A stretch of 64,000 nt of DNA. Origin: Sulfuricystis multivorans (GTDB lineage: Bacteria; Pseudomonadota; Gammaproteobacteria; Burkholderiales; Rhodocyclaceae). Below the pieces are notes generated by a model that did not search any database, was not told where the DNA came from, and worked only from the letters and a program-made list of their open reading frames with translations. The translations under genes were made by a program, and so were the position numbers. The stretch spans positions 2,108,001 through 2,172,000 of the forward strand of contig NZ_AP018718.1 in assembly GCF_003966565.1 (NCBI RefSeq), read 5' to 3'. Shown here piece by piece: positions 6,049 through 19,127 of the stretch (positions within the stretch are counted from its first letter, which is position 1; the number at the start of each line of letters is the position of its first letter).

Positions 6049-6829
6049 ATCCCGCGGCCAACGCGTTGCTCAACTTGACGTAGGCTTCGACTGGCAGCTC
6101 CTCCGCCCGCGCCGTCGGGGCGATGCCTTGTGCCGCGAGCAAACTTTCGCCGCCGAATTCCTTCAGCGTGTTGCGCAGCATCTTGCGTCGCTGGGAAAAG
6201 GCTGCCGTCACCAGCCGGGAGAACAGGGCTTCGTCTCGTGCCGTCTCGCCAGCGCCGAGTTTGCGCGGGATCATGCGCACCACGGCCGAGTCGACCTTCG
6301 GCGCCGGATCGAACGCCCCCGGTGGCACGATGAACAACCGCTCCAGCTGAAAGCGGTATTGCAGCATCACCGACAGCCGCCCATAAGCGCCCGACCCCGG
6401 CGCGGCGACCATCCGGTCGACGACTTCCTTCTGCAACATGAAATGCATCTCGGCGATCCGGTCGGCGAATCGCGTCAGATGGAACAGCAACGGGCTCGAG
6501 ATGTTGTAGGGCAGATTGCCGACGATCTTCAGCGGCCCGTCGCCTTCGAGCAGGCCGAAATCGAAGCGCAGCGCATCGCCATCAAAGATCGTCAGCCGCT
6601 CGGAAGGAAAATGCCTTCTCAAATGGGTGATCAGGTCGCGGTCGATCTCGATGACGAAGAGATGGTCGAGCCGCAGAAGGAGCGGGGCGGTGAGCGCCCC
6701 CAAACCCGGGCCGATCTCGACGACGACATCGCCCGGGCGCGGCGCGATCGCGGCGACGATCTTGCGGATCACCCCCGGCGAGACGAGGAAGTTCTGCCCG
6801 AAGCGCCTCCTGGGCTGATGCGCTTTCAT
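6047..6829 (-). CDS. rsmA: 16S rRNA (adenine1518-N6/adenine1519-N6)-dimethyltransferase
   Basis: RsmA (KsgA) dimethylates two adjacent adenines near the 3' end of 16S rRNA, using S-adenosylmethionine. The 260-residue protein shows RRRFGQNFL at the N terminus, the SAM-binding motif [12 protein letters not shown], and the catalytic [12 protein letters not shown]. It is the last gene of lptD-surA-pdxA-rsmA, the same order as in Escherichia coli. Its ATG overlaps the pdxA stop by three bases. Confidence 0.96.
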
Positions 6830-11745: not shown

Positions 11746-11939
11746 CCCAGATTGTCCATTAGACCATCCTGTCAGCGGATGGGCGTGAGCAAGCCTTGCC
11801 ATCCTGGACTGCGCGGGCGCGCATCATCTGTGGGCGGGCCCTTCGTGCCCGCGCTCCTCGCCAATAGTCACGGCTATTGACTCGTCGCGCGGACGCAAAT
11901 CGCCTCGCCCTCGCCTCGCACCCTAATGGACAATCTGGG
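11746..11939. mobile_element. MITE-like element, family A, copy 1 (A1)
   Basis: The 194-bp element is bounded by inverted ends CCCAGATTGTCCATTAG and its complement (CTAATGGACAATCTGGG). Two extra A/T bases on each side extend the match to AACCC...GGGTT. It has no coding capacity for a transposase. Inside, CAATAG and CTATTG form a small hairpin, and GGGCGGG/CCCGC arms form a second one. A second copy (A2) lies at 15533-15737 in opposite orientation, nearly identical but with 11 extra bases near one end. The flanks TCAAA and TTCAA match only partly, so the target duplication here is uncertain. It fills most of the lptD-amgK divergent region. Confidence 0.8.
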
Positions 11940-11973: not shown

Positions 11974-12972
11974 GTGGAGCGGAGCGAAGCGATCGAAGAC
12001 TGGCTGGCCGGACATTTCACCGGGCGGCGCTTCGCGCTCGCCCCGGCCTCGGCCGACGCCAGTTTCCGCCGCTATTTTCGCGTCACCCTGGACGATGGCG
12101 CCACGTACATCGTCATGGATGCGCCGCCCGCGCATGAGGACGTGCGTCCGTGGCTCGATGTGCAACGGCTGTTTCGCGCTGCCGGCGCGCATGTACCCGA
12201 AGTACTGGCAAAGGATCTGGCACAAGGCTTTCTGCTCATCTCTGATCTCGGTTCGACCACCTATCTCGCTGCATTGGCGGCAGGCGCCGATGCCGATTCC
12301 CTCTACCGTGCCGCGCTCGAGACGCTGATCGACATCCAGCGCGCGAGCCGTCCCGGCGCGTTGCCGGCCTATGACCGCACGCTGCTCAAACGCGAGCTCG
12401 ACCTGTTTCCTGAATGGTATGTCGCACGGCATCTCGCCGTCGAGCTCGATTCTGCCGAGCGGAACATGCTCGCAGCGGTGTTCGAGAAAATCCTCGCCGT
12501 CAATCTCGCCGAGCCTTGCGTATTCGTGCATCGCGATTATCACTCGCGCAATCTGATGGTCACAGGCAGCGCGCCCGGGGTGATCGATTTCCAGGATGCC
12601 GTCTTTGGGCCGATCAGCTACGACCTCGTTTCGCTCTTCAAGGACGCCTATGTCGACTGGCCCGAGGAGCAGACCCTCGACTGGCTGGCGCGCTACTGGG
12701 AAAAGGCCAAGCGCGCGGGCTTGCCGGTGCGCGCCGACTTCGGCGAATTCTTCCGCGACTACGAGTGGATGGGCGTGCAGCGGCATCTCAAGGTGCTCGG
12801 CATCTTCGCGCGCCTTTACCACCGCGATGGCAAGGACGGCTACCTCAAGGACATGCCGCGGGTCGCCCGCTATCTGCGTAGCACCTGCGAACGTTACGGC
12901 GAGCTGGCACCCTTGTTGCGCCTGATCGACAAACTGGAAAACCGACAATCTCAAGTGGCCTATACATTCTGA
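11974..12972 (+). CDS. amgK: N-acetylmuramate/N-acetylglucosamine kinase (AmgK-type phosphotransferase)
   Basis: AmgK phosphorylates the anomeric carbon of MurNAc/GlcNAc in the cell-wall recycling route that bypasses de novo UDP-MurNAc synthesis. The aminoglycoside-phosphotransferase fold is shown by the catalytic loop VHRDYHSRNLMV and the metal motif VIDFQDAVFGP. The next gene is murU, and the divergent neighbour is lptD, as in Pseudomonas. The start is uncertain. GTG 11974 has AAGGGA four bases upstream and begins where family similarity is expected. In-frame ATGs at 11926 and 11944 lie in or next to element A1; use of 11926 would give a start codon supplied by the element. Confidence 0.88.
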   Translation: MERSEAIEDWLAGHFTGRRFALAPASADASFRRYFRVTLDDGATYIVMDAPPAHEDVRPWLDVQRLFRAAGAHVPEVLAKDLAQGFLLISDLGSTTYLAALAAGADADSLYRAALETLIDIQRASRPGALPAYDRTLLKRELDLFPEWYVARHLAVELDSAERNMLAAVFEKILAVNLAEPCVFVHRDYHSRNLMVTGSAPGVIDFQDAVFGPISYDLVSLFKDAYVDWPEEQTLDWLARYWEKAKRAGLPVRADFGEFFRDYEWMGVQRHLKVLGIFARLYHRDGKDGYLKDMPRVARYLRSTCERYGELAPLLRLIDKLENRQSQVAYTF

Positions 12973-13665: not shown

Positions 13666-14973
13666 ATGGATCTCCTTCCCTTCCGCAACCGTCGTCAACG
13701 CCTACTCGACCGCATGACGGCTTCCGGCGGTGGCGTGGCGGTGATCCCCACCGCCGCCGAGCACATCCGCAACCGCGACACGCATTTCCCGTTTCGCGCC
13801 GACAGCTACTTCCACTACCTGACCGGCTTTCCCGAGCCCGAGGCCGTCCTCGTGCTGGTGGCAGGCAATACCCCCCAGACGCTCCTGTTCTGCCGCGAAA
13901 AGGATGCCCAGAAGGAAATCTGGGACGGCTTCCGCTACGGCCCGGCAGCAGCGCGCGAAATCTTCGGTTTCGATGCCGCCCACCCGATTGCCGAGTTCGA
14001 CGCAAAACTCCCCGACCTCTTGGCCGACCAGCCAGCGCTGTGGTATTCGCTCGGCTTCGAGGCCGATTGGGATGCCCGCATCGTCAAGGCGATGAACGCG
14101 GTGCGGGCGCAAACGCGTGCCGGCAAGCGCGCGCCGAGCGTCACGCATGATGTGCGCGCCGTGCTCGACGCGATGCGCCTCATCAAGGATGAGCACGAGA
14201 TCGCGCTGCTGCGCCGCGCGGCGCAAATCGCCGCCAGCGCCCACCGTCGCGCGATGCGCGCCACTGCGCCGGGCAAATACGAATACGAGATCGAGGCCGA
14301 GTTCCTGCACGAGTTTCGCCGCCAAGGTTGTCAGGCGCCGGCCTATCCGCCGATCGTCGCCAGCGGCGCGAACGCTTGCATCCTGCACTATGTCGCCAAC
14401 GACCAGCCGCTCGAGGATGGCAGGCTCCTTTTGATCGACGCCGGCTGCGAATTCGCCGGCTATGCCAGCGACATCACGCGCACTTTTCCGGTCAGTGGCC
14501 GCTTCACCGGCCCGCAGGCCGACCTCTATGAGCTGGTGCTCGACGCCCAGACCGCGGCGATCACGGCGGTCGAACCCGGGGCAAGTTTTCTCGCCCCGCA
14601 CGAGGCGGCGCTGCGCGTGCTGGTTCAAGGCATGATCGACCTCAAATTGCTCGTCGGTAGCCGGGATGGCCTCATCGAGTCGGAAGCCTACAAGCGCTTC
14701 TACATGCACCGCACCAGCCATTGGCTGGGACTGGACGTGCATGATGCCGGCGAATACCGCCAGAACGATGCCTGGACGACACTCCAAGCGGGAATGACGC
14801 TCACCGTCGAGCCGGGCCTGTATGTGCGCGCCGCCGACGATGTGCCAGCGGCCTTTCACGATATCGGCATCCGCATCGAGGACGACGTGCTGGTCACGAC
14901 GAATGGCCGTGAAGTTCTCTCACGCGATGCGCCGAAGACCATCGCCGAGATCGAGGCGGAGATGAAACGATGA
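13666..14973 (+). CDS. pepP: Xaa-Pro aminopeptidase, M24B family
   Basis: PepP removes N-terminal residues preceding proline; it is a cytoplasmic metallopeptidase. The N-terminal domain starts MDLLPFRNRRQRLL. The C-terminal pita-bread domain carries the metal ligands in IDAGCEFAGYASDITRTF, HRTSHWLGLDVHD and TVEPGLY, and a glutamate near GIRIEDDV. An in-frame ATG at 13645 overlaps the end of murU, but alignment to the family favours 13666 (435 residues). The next gene is ubiH-like, as in the Escherichia coli pepP-ubiH pair, with a four-base overlap. Confidence 0.93.
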   Translation: MDLLPFRNRRQRLLDRMTASGGGVAVIPTAAEHIRNRDTHFPFRADSYFHYLTGFPEPEAVLVLVAGNTPQTLLFCREKDAQKEIWDGFRYGPAAAREIFGFDAAHPIAEFDAKLPDLLADQPALWYSLGFEADWDARIVKAMNAVRAQTRAGKRAPSVTHDVRAVLDAMRLIKDEHEIALLRRAAQIAASAHRRAMRATAPGKYEYEIEAEFLHEFRRQGCQAPAYPPIVASGANACILHYVANDQPLEDGRLLLIDAGCEFAGYASDITRTFPVSGRFTGPQADLYELVLDAQTAAITAVEPGASFLAPHEAALRVLVQGMIDLKLLVGSRDGLIESEAYKRFYMHRTSHWLGLDVHDAGEYRQNDAWTTLQAGMTLTVEPGLYVRAADDVPAAFHDIGIRIEDDVLVTTNGREVLSRDAPKTIAEIEAEMKR

Positions 14974-16259
14974 ACGCACCTGTCTTGATCATCGGCGGGG
15001 GACCTGCCGGCATGGCGCTCGCGCTCGCCCTCTGGCGCAATGGCGTGATGAGCCGCATCGTCGATATCCGTCCGCGCGGCGCGGCGAAGCTCGATGCCCG
15101 CATCCTCGCCCTCTCGCATGGTGCGCGGCTGATTCTCGAAGCGCTGGGGGTATGGCAGGACATCCCACACACGCCGATCGAGACCATCCACGTCTCGCAT
15201 GCCGGCGGCTTGGGCCGCACGCTCATCAGCGCCGATGAGGAGGGCGTGCCGGCGCTGGGCTATGTGCTCTCTGCCGGTGCGCTGGCCACTGCGCTCGATG
15301 CGGCGATCAGCCGCGTCGGCATCGACTATGCCGAAAAAACGCCGGCGCCGGCCACCACGGATGCCTTGCTCACCGTCCATGCCGAGGGCCGCATCGACGA
15401 TGGCGCCGATCTCGTCGTGCGCGACTACGGTCAGCATGCGGTGATTTGTCTCGCCAAGGGCGTGGCATCGCATGGTCACATCGCCTGGGAACGGTTCACC
15501 CCGGAAGGCCCGGTCGCGCTGTTGCCTTTCAACCCAGATCGTCCATTAGGGCGCGAGGCGATTCCGAGGCGAGGGCGAGGCGATTTGCGTCCGCGTGACG
15601 AGTCAATAGCCGTGACTATTGGCGAGGAACGCGGGCGCGAAGGGCCCGCCCGCAGACCGGAAACGCCCGCGCAGTCCAGGATGACAAGGTTTGCTCACGC
15701 TCATCCGCTGACAGGACGGTCTAATGGACAATCTGGGTTCAACGACGGTTACGCCGTCGTGCTGACCTGTCCGGCCGCCGACAGCGAGCGTATCGCGGCG
15801 CTGGGTGATGCCGACTTCCTGGCGCTATTGCAGATGCGTTTCGGCTCACGGCTGGCACTCGCCGGTGTCGGCCCACGCCAGGTCTATCCGCTCGGCTTGC
15901 GCATGCGCCGGCAGGTGATTGCCGAACGCGCCGTCTGGATCGGCAATGCGGCGCAGACGCTGCACCCGGTCGCCGGCCAGGGCTTCAATCTCGCGCTGCG
16001 CGACATCGCGGAGCTTGCCGACACTTTGCGTGACGCCGCGGATCCCGGCGATCCAGAGCTACTCTCCCGTTATGCCCGCGGCCGCCGGCTCGACCGCCTG
16101 GCCACCGCGACATTCACCGGCACTCTGGTGCGGCTCTTCTCGAACGATTTTGGCCCACTCAAGCACCTGCGCGGCGCGGGGCTCTTGGCGCTCGATCTGT
16201 GCCCCCCCGCCCGCTCCTTCCTGGCCCGACGCATGATGTTCGGCGCAAGAGGATGGTAG
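14970..16259 (+). CDS. ubiH: UbiH/Coq6-family FAD monooxygenase carrying an in-frame 70-codon insertion
   Basis: Members hydroxylate the ubiquinone ring using FAD and O2. Visible motifs are the dinucleotide fold LIIGGGPAGMALALAL and the C-terminal FAD motif IGNAAQTLHPVAGQGFN. Between ALLPF and GYAVVLTC the gene is split by element A2, but the frame stays open. Removing 205 bp of element plus one TTCAA copy (210 bp) restores LLPFNDGYAVV and a 359-residue protein. The inserted segment is Arg/Gly/Pro-rich and unlike the family. Whether the 429-residue product folds is unknown. The position after pepP supports ubiH rather than another ubiquinone hydroxylase. Confidence 0.85.
   Translation: MNAPVLIIGGGPAGMALALALWRNGVMSRIVDIRPRGAAKLDARILALSHGARLILEALGVWQDIPHTPIETIHVSHAGGLGRTLISADEEGVPALGYVLSAGALATALDAAISRVGIDYAEKTPAPATTDALLTVHAEGRIDDGADLVVRDYGQHAVICLAKGVASHGHIAWERFTPEGPVALLPFNPDRPLGREAIPRRGRGDLRPRDESIAVTIGEERGREGPARRPETPAQSRMTRFAHAHPLTGRSNGQSGFNDGYAVVLTCPAADSERIAALGDADFLALLQMRFGSRLALAGVGPRQVYPLGLRMRRQVIAERAVWIGNAAQTLHPVAGQGFNLALRDIAELADTLRDAADPGDPELLSRYARGRRLDRLATATFTGTLVRLFSNDFGPLKHLRGAGLLALDLCPPARSFLARRMMFGARGW
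15533..15737. mobile_element. MITE-like element, family A, copy 2 (A2), inside ubiH
   Basis: This 205-bp copy is inverted relative to A1 and begins CCCAGATCGTCCATTAG, ending CTAATGGACAATCTGGG. It is flanked on both sides by TTCAA (15528-15532 and 15738-15742), a perfect 5-bp target duplication. Element plus duplication is 210 bp, exactly 70 codons, with no stop in the ubiH frame. Relative to A1 it has 11 additional bases near the left end and scattered substitutions. It encodes no transposase, so mobilisation would need an enzyme supplied from elsewhere in the genome. Confidence 0.9.
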
Positions 16260-17555: not shown

Positions 17556-19127
17556 ATGAAAGTCAAGCAAGCACTCATCAGCGTATCCGACAAGCATGGC
17601 GTGGTCGATTTCGCGCGCGAACTCGCCGCCTTGGGCATAAAGCTCCTCTCGACGGGTGGCACGGCGAAGCTTCTGCGCGAGGCAGGCCTTGCCGTCACCG
17701 ACATCGCCGACTACACCGGCTTTCCGGAAATGCTCGACGGCCGCGTGAAAACCCTGCACCCGAAGGTGCATGCCGGCATCCTCGCCATTCGCGGCAACGC
17801 GGCGCACGAGGCGACCTTGCAACAGCACGGCATCCCGACCATCGACCTCATCGTCGTCAATCTCTATCCATTCGAGCAGACCGTCGCCAGGAAAGATTGC
17901 ACGCTTTTCGAGGCGATCGAGAACATCGACATCGGCGGCCCGACCATGGTGCGCGCCGCGGCGAAGAATCACGGCGACGAGAACGGCGGTTGCGCGGTCG
18001 TCGTCGAACCGGCCGACTATCCAGCCATCCTCGCGGAGCTGAAGGCCAACGGCGGCAAGATCTGCGCTGCGACACGTTTTGCGCTGGCCAAAAAAGCCTT
18101 CGTGCATACCGCGCGCTATGATGCCGCCATCGCCAACTGGCTCACCCGCCTCGATGCGAACAATCAACCCACCGCTTTCCCGGAACGTCTGCAACTGGCC
18201 TTCGACAAGGTCGCCACTCTGCGCTACGGCGAGAACCCGCATCAGGCCGCCGCTTTTTATCGCGAACCGCAAACCGTGCCGGGCAGCATCGCCTCTTACC
18301 AGCAGCTGCAGGGCAAGGAGCTTTCCTATAACAACATCGCCGATGCCGATGCCGCCTGGGAATGCGTGAAAGCCTTCGACAGCACGGCCTGCGTGATCGT
18401 CAAGCATGCCAATCCCTGCGGCGTGGCGCTCGGCAAGACGGCCGAGGAAGCCTATCGCCGTGCCTTCAAGACCGACCCGGTCTCGGCCTTCGGCGGCATC
18501 ATCGCCTTCAACTGTCCGATCGACCAGGCGGCCGCCGAGGCGATCTCCGGCCAGTTCGCCGAGGTGATCATCGCGCCGGAAATCACCCCTCAGGCACGCG
18601 CGGTCTTCGTCGCCAAACAGAATCTGCGCGTGCTGATCGTGCCGCTGGGCAAAACTCCCGGCCAGCTCGATTTCAAGCGCGTCGGCGGGGGGCTGTTGGT
18701 GCAAACGGCAGACGAAGCACGTATCACCGCGGCCGATCTCAAGGTGGTCACCAAGCGCGTGCCGACGGAAGTCGAGATGCGCGATTTGCTGTTCGCCTGG
18801 CGGGTCGCCAAGTACGTCAAGTCCAACGCGATCGTCTATTGCAAGGACGAGATGACGGTCGGTGTCGGCGCAGGACAAATGAGCCGCGTCGATTCGGCGC
18901 GCATCGCCGCGATCAAGGCCGAGAACAACGGCCTCACCGTCAAGGGCGCGGTGGTGGCCTCCGACGCCTTCTTCCCGTTCCGCGACGGCCTCGACGTGCT
19001 CGCCCAGGCGGGCGCCACCGCGGTGATCCAGCCCGGCGGCTCGGTGCGTGATGCCGAGGTGATCGCCGCCGCCGACGAGCAGAACGTGGCGATGGTATTC
19101 ACGGGTTATCGTCATTTCAGGCATTGA
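17556..19127 (+). CDS. purH: Bifunctional AICAR transformylase / IMP cyclohydrolase
   Basis: PurH catalyses the last two steps of IMP synthesis. The 523-residue protein has the N-terminal cyclohydrolase (methylglyoxal-synthase-like) domain starting [17 protein letters not shown]. The C-terminal transformylase domain contains [14 protein letters not shown] and [19 protein letters not shown] upstream of the ATG is the ribosome-binding site. purD follows four bases after the stop, so both belong to one purine unit. Confidence 0.97.

Follow-up and report, generated by a model that had tools for sequence, protein, structure and literature searches.

The ubiH gene of Sulfuricystis multivorans contains a 205-bp MITE, bordered by perfect TTCAA duplications, which lies in a turn of the encoded enzyme and lengthens the protein by 70 codons without interrupting its reading frame. 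The best explanation, and one that we regard as quite probable, is a young insertion into this turn that came to be in frame by chance and is tolerated with UbiH still working. With an insert-free close relative known, this is a clean case, from outside the Rickettsiales, of a transposon that has added a long loop to a core respiratory-quinone enzyme. Relatives have two further in-frame inserts of repeat origin in this protein, so that UbiH becomes a natural insertion-scanning experiment, and the case offers a direct and cheap test of the tolerance of a conserved flavoenzyme to loops of mobile DNA.

The insertion in ubiH and its element family

Coordinates without a prefix refer to the window, i.e. 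the whole 64-kb stretch of DNA analysed, which is contained in the 2.81-Mb genome assembly of S. multivorans (hereafter G000). The features concerned are as follows.

14970..16259, + strand: ubiH, UbiH/UbiF/COQ6-family flavin monooxygenase; ORF of 429 codons including the 70-codon insert
15528..15532, no strand: left target-site duplication TTCAA, by sequence inspection
15533..15737, + strand: MITE copy, 205 bp, stop-free in the ubiH frame, by sequence and family comparison
15533..15549, + strand: left terminal inverted repeat, 17 bp
15721..15737, - strand: right terminal inverted repeat, 17 bp, 16 identical
15738..15742, no strand: right target-site duplication TTCAA, by sequence inspection
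15534..15743, + strand: 70 added codons (UbiH residues 189-258), mostly a disordered loop in the AlphaFold model
11746..11939, - strand: second MITE copy, 194 bp, same subfamily as the ubiH copy, unlike 5-bp flanks, ahead of an amgK-like gene

A sequence-only reading of this DNA had described a 205-bp element with inverted ends and perfect TTCAA duplications inside ubiH, adding exactly 70 codons in frame, and both statements were confirmed. The two perfect duplications and the element between them span 15528-15742, the terminal inverted repeats (TIRs) are identical at 16 of 17 bp (CCCAGATYGTCCATTAG), and the MITE with one target-site duplication (TSD) amounts to 210 bp, leaving the ORF at 14970-16259 intact with no internal stop. 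The product exceeds the cut-off of the NCBIfam model TIGR01988 (271.3 bits against 224.65); the ubiH equivalog models score highest, yet below their cut-offs (NF005421, 304.8 against 450; TIGR01984 UbiH, 287.9 against 392.2), and the insert-free UbiH of the nearest relative found (G017) likewise lies below both.

BLAST with the ubiH copy gave 49 matches in the G000 genome, in which a 14-base TIR pattern, with at most one mismatch, occurs at 110 sites against none for the reversed control. In the G000 stretches examined, 54 TIR pairs lie 100-500 bp apart; 44 of them are 194-208 bp long, and exact 5-bp flank duplications are present at 44 of the 54. One pair, of 442 bp and with 5-bp flanks that differ (L024 3713-4154), is likely to be spurious. 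The 5-bp flanks vary by site (TTCAA, TTGAA, TTAAA, ATCAT, GTAAA, ATAAA, TTTAA, ATGAT and others) and are therefore taken as target-site duplications and not as part of the MITE. The proposed identity as a MITE is thus upheld by the TIRs, the varied but exact TSDs of fixed length and the multicopy family. In their small size, lack of a transposase gene, TIRs, TSDs and many copies, these elements resemble prokaryotic MITEs, which are non-autonomous IS derivatives, and here too the copies lie mostly outside genes, as judged by codon score.

Matches to the family were found in seven of the 61 genomes searched, which sample 43 genera; all seven belong to one genus, and two of them (G011 and G016) show only a 22-bp MITE end. 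Among 19 genomes of the genus, TIR sites are abundant in three (94 in G000, 82 in G006 and 57 in G017). A collection of plasmids yielded no match to the MITE.

The second copy in the window (11746-11939) stops about 35 bp ahead of a GTG at 11974, which is conserved in G017, where the stretch has no MITE, and at which the amgK-like gene probably starts; the end of this copy provides an ATG that extends the ORF call of that gene (MDNLGS...). Elsewhere in the genome, L027 3006-3417 (G000:C1:2279408-2279819) consists of two adjacent copies with a single TTCAA common to both.

The enzyme, its relatives and its pathway

The 429-residue UbiH was modelled with AlphaFold2 from a 35-sequence alignment (mean pLDDT 82.5, pTM 0.82). 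Values of pLDDT below 50 are confined to residues 200-254, the sole long stretch, and 330-334, and in a well-modelled UbiH fold the low-confidence insert separates strand 182-187 from strand 260-268, with the caveat that AlphaFold tends to draw any added segment as a loop. The first Foldseek match was UbiH 7mwa of Acinetobacter baumannii, a 2-octaprenyl-6-methoxyphenol hydroxylase (26% identity), which has the same fold and belongs to the same family; unlike it, the Sulfuricystis enzyme carries 70 inserted residues in the turn that follows LLP. In the alignment, the block WIGNAAQ.LHPV.GQGFNL is intact in the ubiH product. Segment 188-258 contains 14 Arg but no Lys and has a pI of 11.6, so that the basic disordered loop anticipated from the sequence is borne out as a prediction. 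In p-hydroxybenzoate hydroxylase the corresponding hairpin is close to the active site, and the insert may therefore affect activity.

The closest relatives of this UbiH come from Rhodocyclaceae MAGs. G017, a one-contig assembly that is 100% complete, has 93.5% identity on one flank of the insert and 89.5% on the other; its UbiH matches residues 1-187 and then 257-429 of the 429-residue form, with an uninterrupted turn (LLPFADGYAVV). The strand-turn-strand LLPFNDGYAVV, which had been reconstructed by excising the element, is accordingly the kind of short turn seen in relatives. A total of 81 UbiH sequences were aligned, namely those of the window, G017 and 79 of 80 relative loci (the partial L164 was excluded, and none was dropped for frame or stops); none of the other 80 has the 70-residue segment. 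In a family-wide survey with E up to 1e-40, for which G008 was outside the sample, 174 of 199 genomes had a UbiH match, and among the matches listed a break at this turn was seen only in G000, though shorter inserts need not show in this way. Gene order and strand around ubiH are conserved, six or seven window genes being collinear in the relatives checked (dusB and purH were without a match in the L107 stretch compared).

The insertion is probably recent, the ubiH copy differing from its nearest copy at only 4 of 205 positions, as against a ubiH dS of 0.34 between G000 and G017; this bound becomes looser if the nearest copy itself descends from the ubiH copy. The dN/dS of ubiH between the two genomes is 0.17, with values of 0.09-0.26 for five neighbour genes. 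Residues unique to either UbiH are evenly shared, with eight in G000 and eight in G017 when L099 is the outgroup (8/9 with L107 and 8/8 with L101). Few changes are expected after so young an insertion, and the absence of decay therefore says little. A different pattern is seen in purH (17556-19127), with 26 residues unique to G000 against two to G017 (outgroup L099), or 24 against six (outgroup L101), an asymmetry that may reflect uneven change or recombination.

Insertion of repeats is not confined to G000. The UbiH of L096 (JAUSBB010000051.1, a 100% match to contig C10 of the congener G008) is longer by 28-29 residues in this very turn, and the inserted DNA is a REP-like repeat. With 40 candidates scored in each genome, the matches to it number no fewer than 32 for G008, 50 for G007 and 42 for G009. 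Most of these matches break off at base 83 of the 91-base query; G000 and G017 have four matches each. This repeat differs from the ubiH MITE, which is without a match in G008, and L097 has a short turn (LLPYGKDKGNQYAVV). In the model of the L096 protein (mean pLDDT 87.5) one segment falls below 50, at the insert (residues 196-213). A third insert is found in the Azonexus MAG L114, in which UbiH is 59 residues longer, the addition following window residue 128 (insert 6382-6558); most of this insert (6440-6558) is repetitive, with 50 matches within the genome of L114 itself, and another Azonexus MAG, L149, has 17 extra residues (6382-6432) at the same place. In-frame inserts shown to be repeats thus occur in three of the 81 UbiH sequences, two of them in one turn. 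The turn after LLP looks tolerant of insertion, to judge from its varying length in relatives and the independent repeat insert of the congener.

A further strong UbiH/UbiF-type gene was found in each of G000 and G017, and both have a COQ7 homologue. In G000 this second gene is the strongest other PF01494 match (L190:2976-4130, 89.3 bits; above the cut-off of NF005788), the remaining PF01494 matches reaching at most 27.8 bits, the two pieces of ubiH itself apart. It belongs to a different NCBIfam family and has a counterpart in the insert-free G017, and so has the look of a long-standing partner enzyme; the suggested replacement of UbiH by a paralogue finds no support. Most of 67 proteobacterial genomes have three ubiquinone hydroxylase genes, according to an extract of the survey concerned (PMC5069965). 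By gene content, UbiH fits as the third hydroxylase and is not visibly replaced. A ubiU-ubiV-ubiT cluster is also present in G000 (L236, G000:C1 about 2513300-2515700), all three genes scoring above NCBIfam cut-offs. In the portion of the source used here, these genes constitute an oxygen-independent route of ubiquinone synthesis (PMC11707229); with them, UbiH could be dispensable in part when oxygen is absent, and a weakened UbiH could be buffered.

Reading frame and alternative explanations

A consensus of the subfamily, derived from the nine closest 205-bp copies (seven of G000 and two of G017), has one of six frames open. In this frame, 69 unique substitutions include 20 synonymous ones against 20.3 expected, and created one stop against 1.7 expected; with no synonymous excess, the open frame looks incidental. 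L035 and L055, two copies of 205 bp from a different subfamily, are not open in the frame equivalent to that used in ubiH, nor as a rule are the other length classes.

Genic location of the copies was judged by a codon score, for which 41 ORFs of the window served as training set, and not by annotation. The ubiH flanks score 49 and 47. Over all readings, both flanks are positive in nine of the 54 G000 pairs, and only ubiH is strong on both sides and open in frame; the sole other open one among the nine is the probably spurious pair, C1:706263 (36/3), also in frame. The remaining seven are given below.

C1:181285: flank scores 31/31, out of frame
C1:2019239: flank scores 32/19, out of frame
C1:575324: flank scores 13/33, in frame, one stop
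C1:51123: flank scores 5/16, in frame, two stops
C1:560684, C1:1034677 and C1:2240507: both flanks positive, out of frame

A Pfam search of the flanks of the first four gave no match. Two more readings, that of 51123 on the opposite strand and that of 520436, are open and in frame, with scores below zero on either side. Among 24 further pairs, 23 of relatives and L228 of G000, no best reading was strongly coding, in frame and open; L215 of G017, with flanks of 46 and 41 and an MFS transporter on the left by Pfam, is in frame with one stop. A G017 match at 2270728 that extends into UbiH was set aside as chance, its best reading scoring -66.

A sole open in-frame genic case in 54 pairs, in an element free of coding constraint, points to random insertion and survivorship and not to in-frame targeting. 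The MITE, a non-autonomous DNA transposon whose family has expanded in three of the 19 genomes of the genus, would recently have transposed into a TTCAA site within the codons for the turn after LLP. The frame would have been kept because MITE and TSD make 210 bp and one subfamily frame happens to be stop-free, orientation and phase being correct by chance (one combination in six), while most less harmless genic insertions would have been purged by selection. The 429-residue UbiH would then be translated and fold normally, with the basic disordered residues looped out of the turn, and remain active in oxygen-dependent ubiquinone synthesis.

The main competitor, which we hold to be unlikely though deserving of serious attention, is that the insertion abolished or crippled UbiH and left a very young pseudogene, ubiquinone being covered by UbiUVT or another hydroxylase. 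The side-by-side ubiU, ubiV and ubiT, the second UbiH/UbiF-family hydroxylase, the COQ7 homologue and the youth of the insertion would all suit such a history. Against it, ubiH has no stop, frameshift or excess of amino-acid changes, its predicted fold is intact, G017 keeps an insert-free ubiH alongside a second hydroxylase, COQ7 and U32-family genes, and the ubiH of G008 stays open although this turn holds another insert there. The suspicion of a dead enzyme, raised from the sequence, hence finds no support in visible decay, a test that is weak for so young an insertion. It is improbable that in this genus the turn is a recurrent landing place for different short mobile repeats, the loops of which are not just tolerated but kept for a function such as tuning the binding to the membrane or the Ubi complex.

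Still less credible is an element of the RPE/WPE kind, adapted to in-frame insertion into genes with a maintained peptide. The +1 frame is open in all nine closest 205-bp copies and the ubiH copy is in frame, as this would predict; however, only one of the 54 pairs is open and in frame with strong coding flanks and none of the 24 further ones, and both the missing synonymous excess and the closed frames of L035, L055 and other length classes speak against it. An assembly error or a contaminating repeat is hardly conceivable: repeats can cause misassembly and the insert is known from one genome only, but the contig (C1) is 2.56 Mb long in a genome listed with a completeness of 100% and a contamination of 0%, and the perfect TSD, the short turn of relatives and the shared gene order are those of a genuine insertion. 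On the sequence evidence, the ubiH insertion looks lucky, recent and tolerated, and unlike RPE-type targeting.

Rickettsia palindromic elements (RPEs), of which Wolbachia has analogues, resemble the present case in placing a repeat-derived peptide in frame inside a conserved metabolic enzyme; they differ from it in that the Sulfuricystis insertion is a single in-frame one among 54 pairs, with clear TSDs, no coding constraint and a betaproteobacterial host. The statement that only Rickettsiales elements insert in frame was overstated. In an extract of a review (PMC10969869), from which the RPE criterion of frequent in-frame gene insertion is also taken, in-frame fusions from intragenic MITEs are called not unusual and Rickettsia exceptional in their frequency. 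Likewise, in the part of the source drawn upon (PMC5896051), the MITEs QMITE1 and QMITE2 of Coxiella extend or interrupt ORFs in frame; in that part, named genes are altered at their ends, unlike ubiH, and the examples named for in-frame insertion in mid-ORF concern hypothetical proteins. The best-matching papers of the literature search included none on a repeat inserted in ubiH. The MITE insert in ubiH is new, the kind of in-frame MITE fusion is already known, and two different repeats in one turn add interest.

Partner elements and nested repeats

No autonomous partner or transposase with these TIRs (CCCAGATTGTCCATTAG ends) was found in the stretches searched, and we know of no named MITE family with such TIRs. 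A fragment of an IS1380-family transposase (G000:C1:39850-40122; L186 4763-5135) directly adjoins a MITE end (G000:C1:39762). The IS1380-family element was rejected as the partner, related copies in G009 and G002 ending in a different TIR (CCCGGATATTTCATGA or alike), and the fragment more likely jumped into the MITE end. Lone TIR ends in G002, G011, G013, G016 and G018 have no opposite end within the stretches examined, two of which (L207 and L210) stop at contig ends. Those of four congeners (L206, L207, L208 and L210, not that of G016) share about 24-50 bp beside the end and may represent a terminus of the partner sought or of some other element. The lone ends in G000 (L226, L227, L192, L038, L041 and L204) showed no convincing partner end.

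Long copies of 356-482 bp (L047, L200, L197 and L053) look by eye like MITEs with other sequence nested inside, and not like IS remnants. The nested sequence in L047 3001-3482, L200 3020-3501, L197 3316-3671 and L193 from 3250 starts or ends with GGAAACGCTGAA or its complement, and sequences so bordered are perhaps another small mobile repeat family that jumps into the MITEs.
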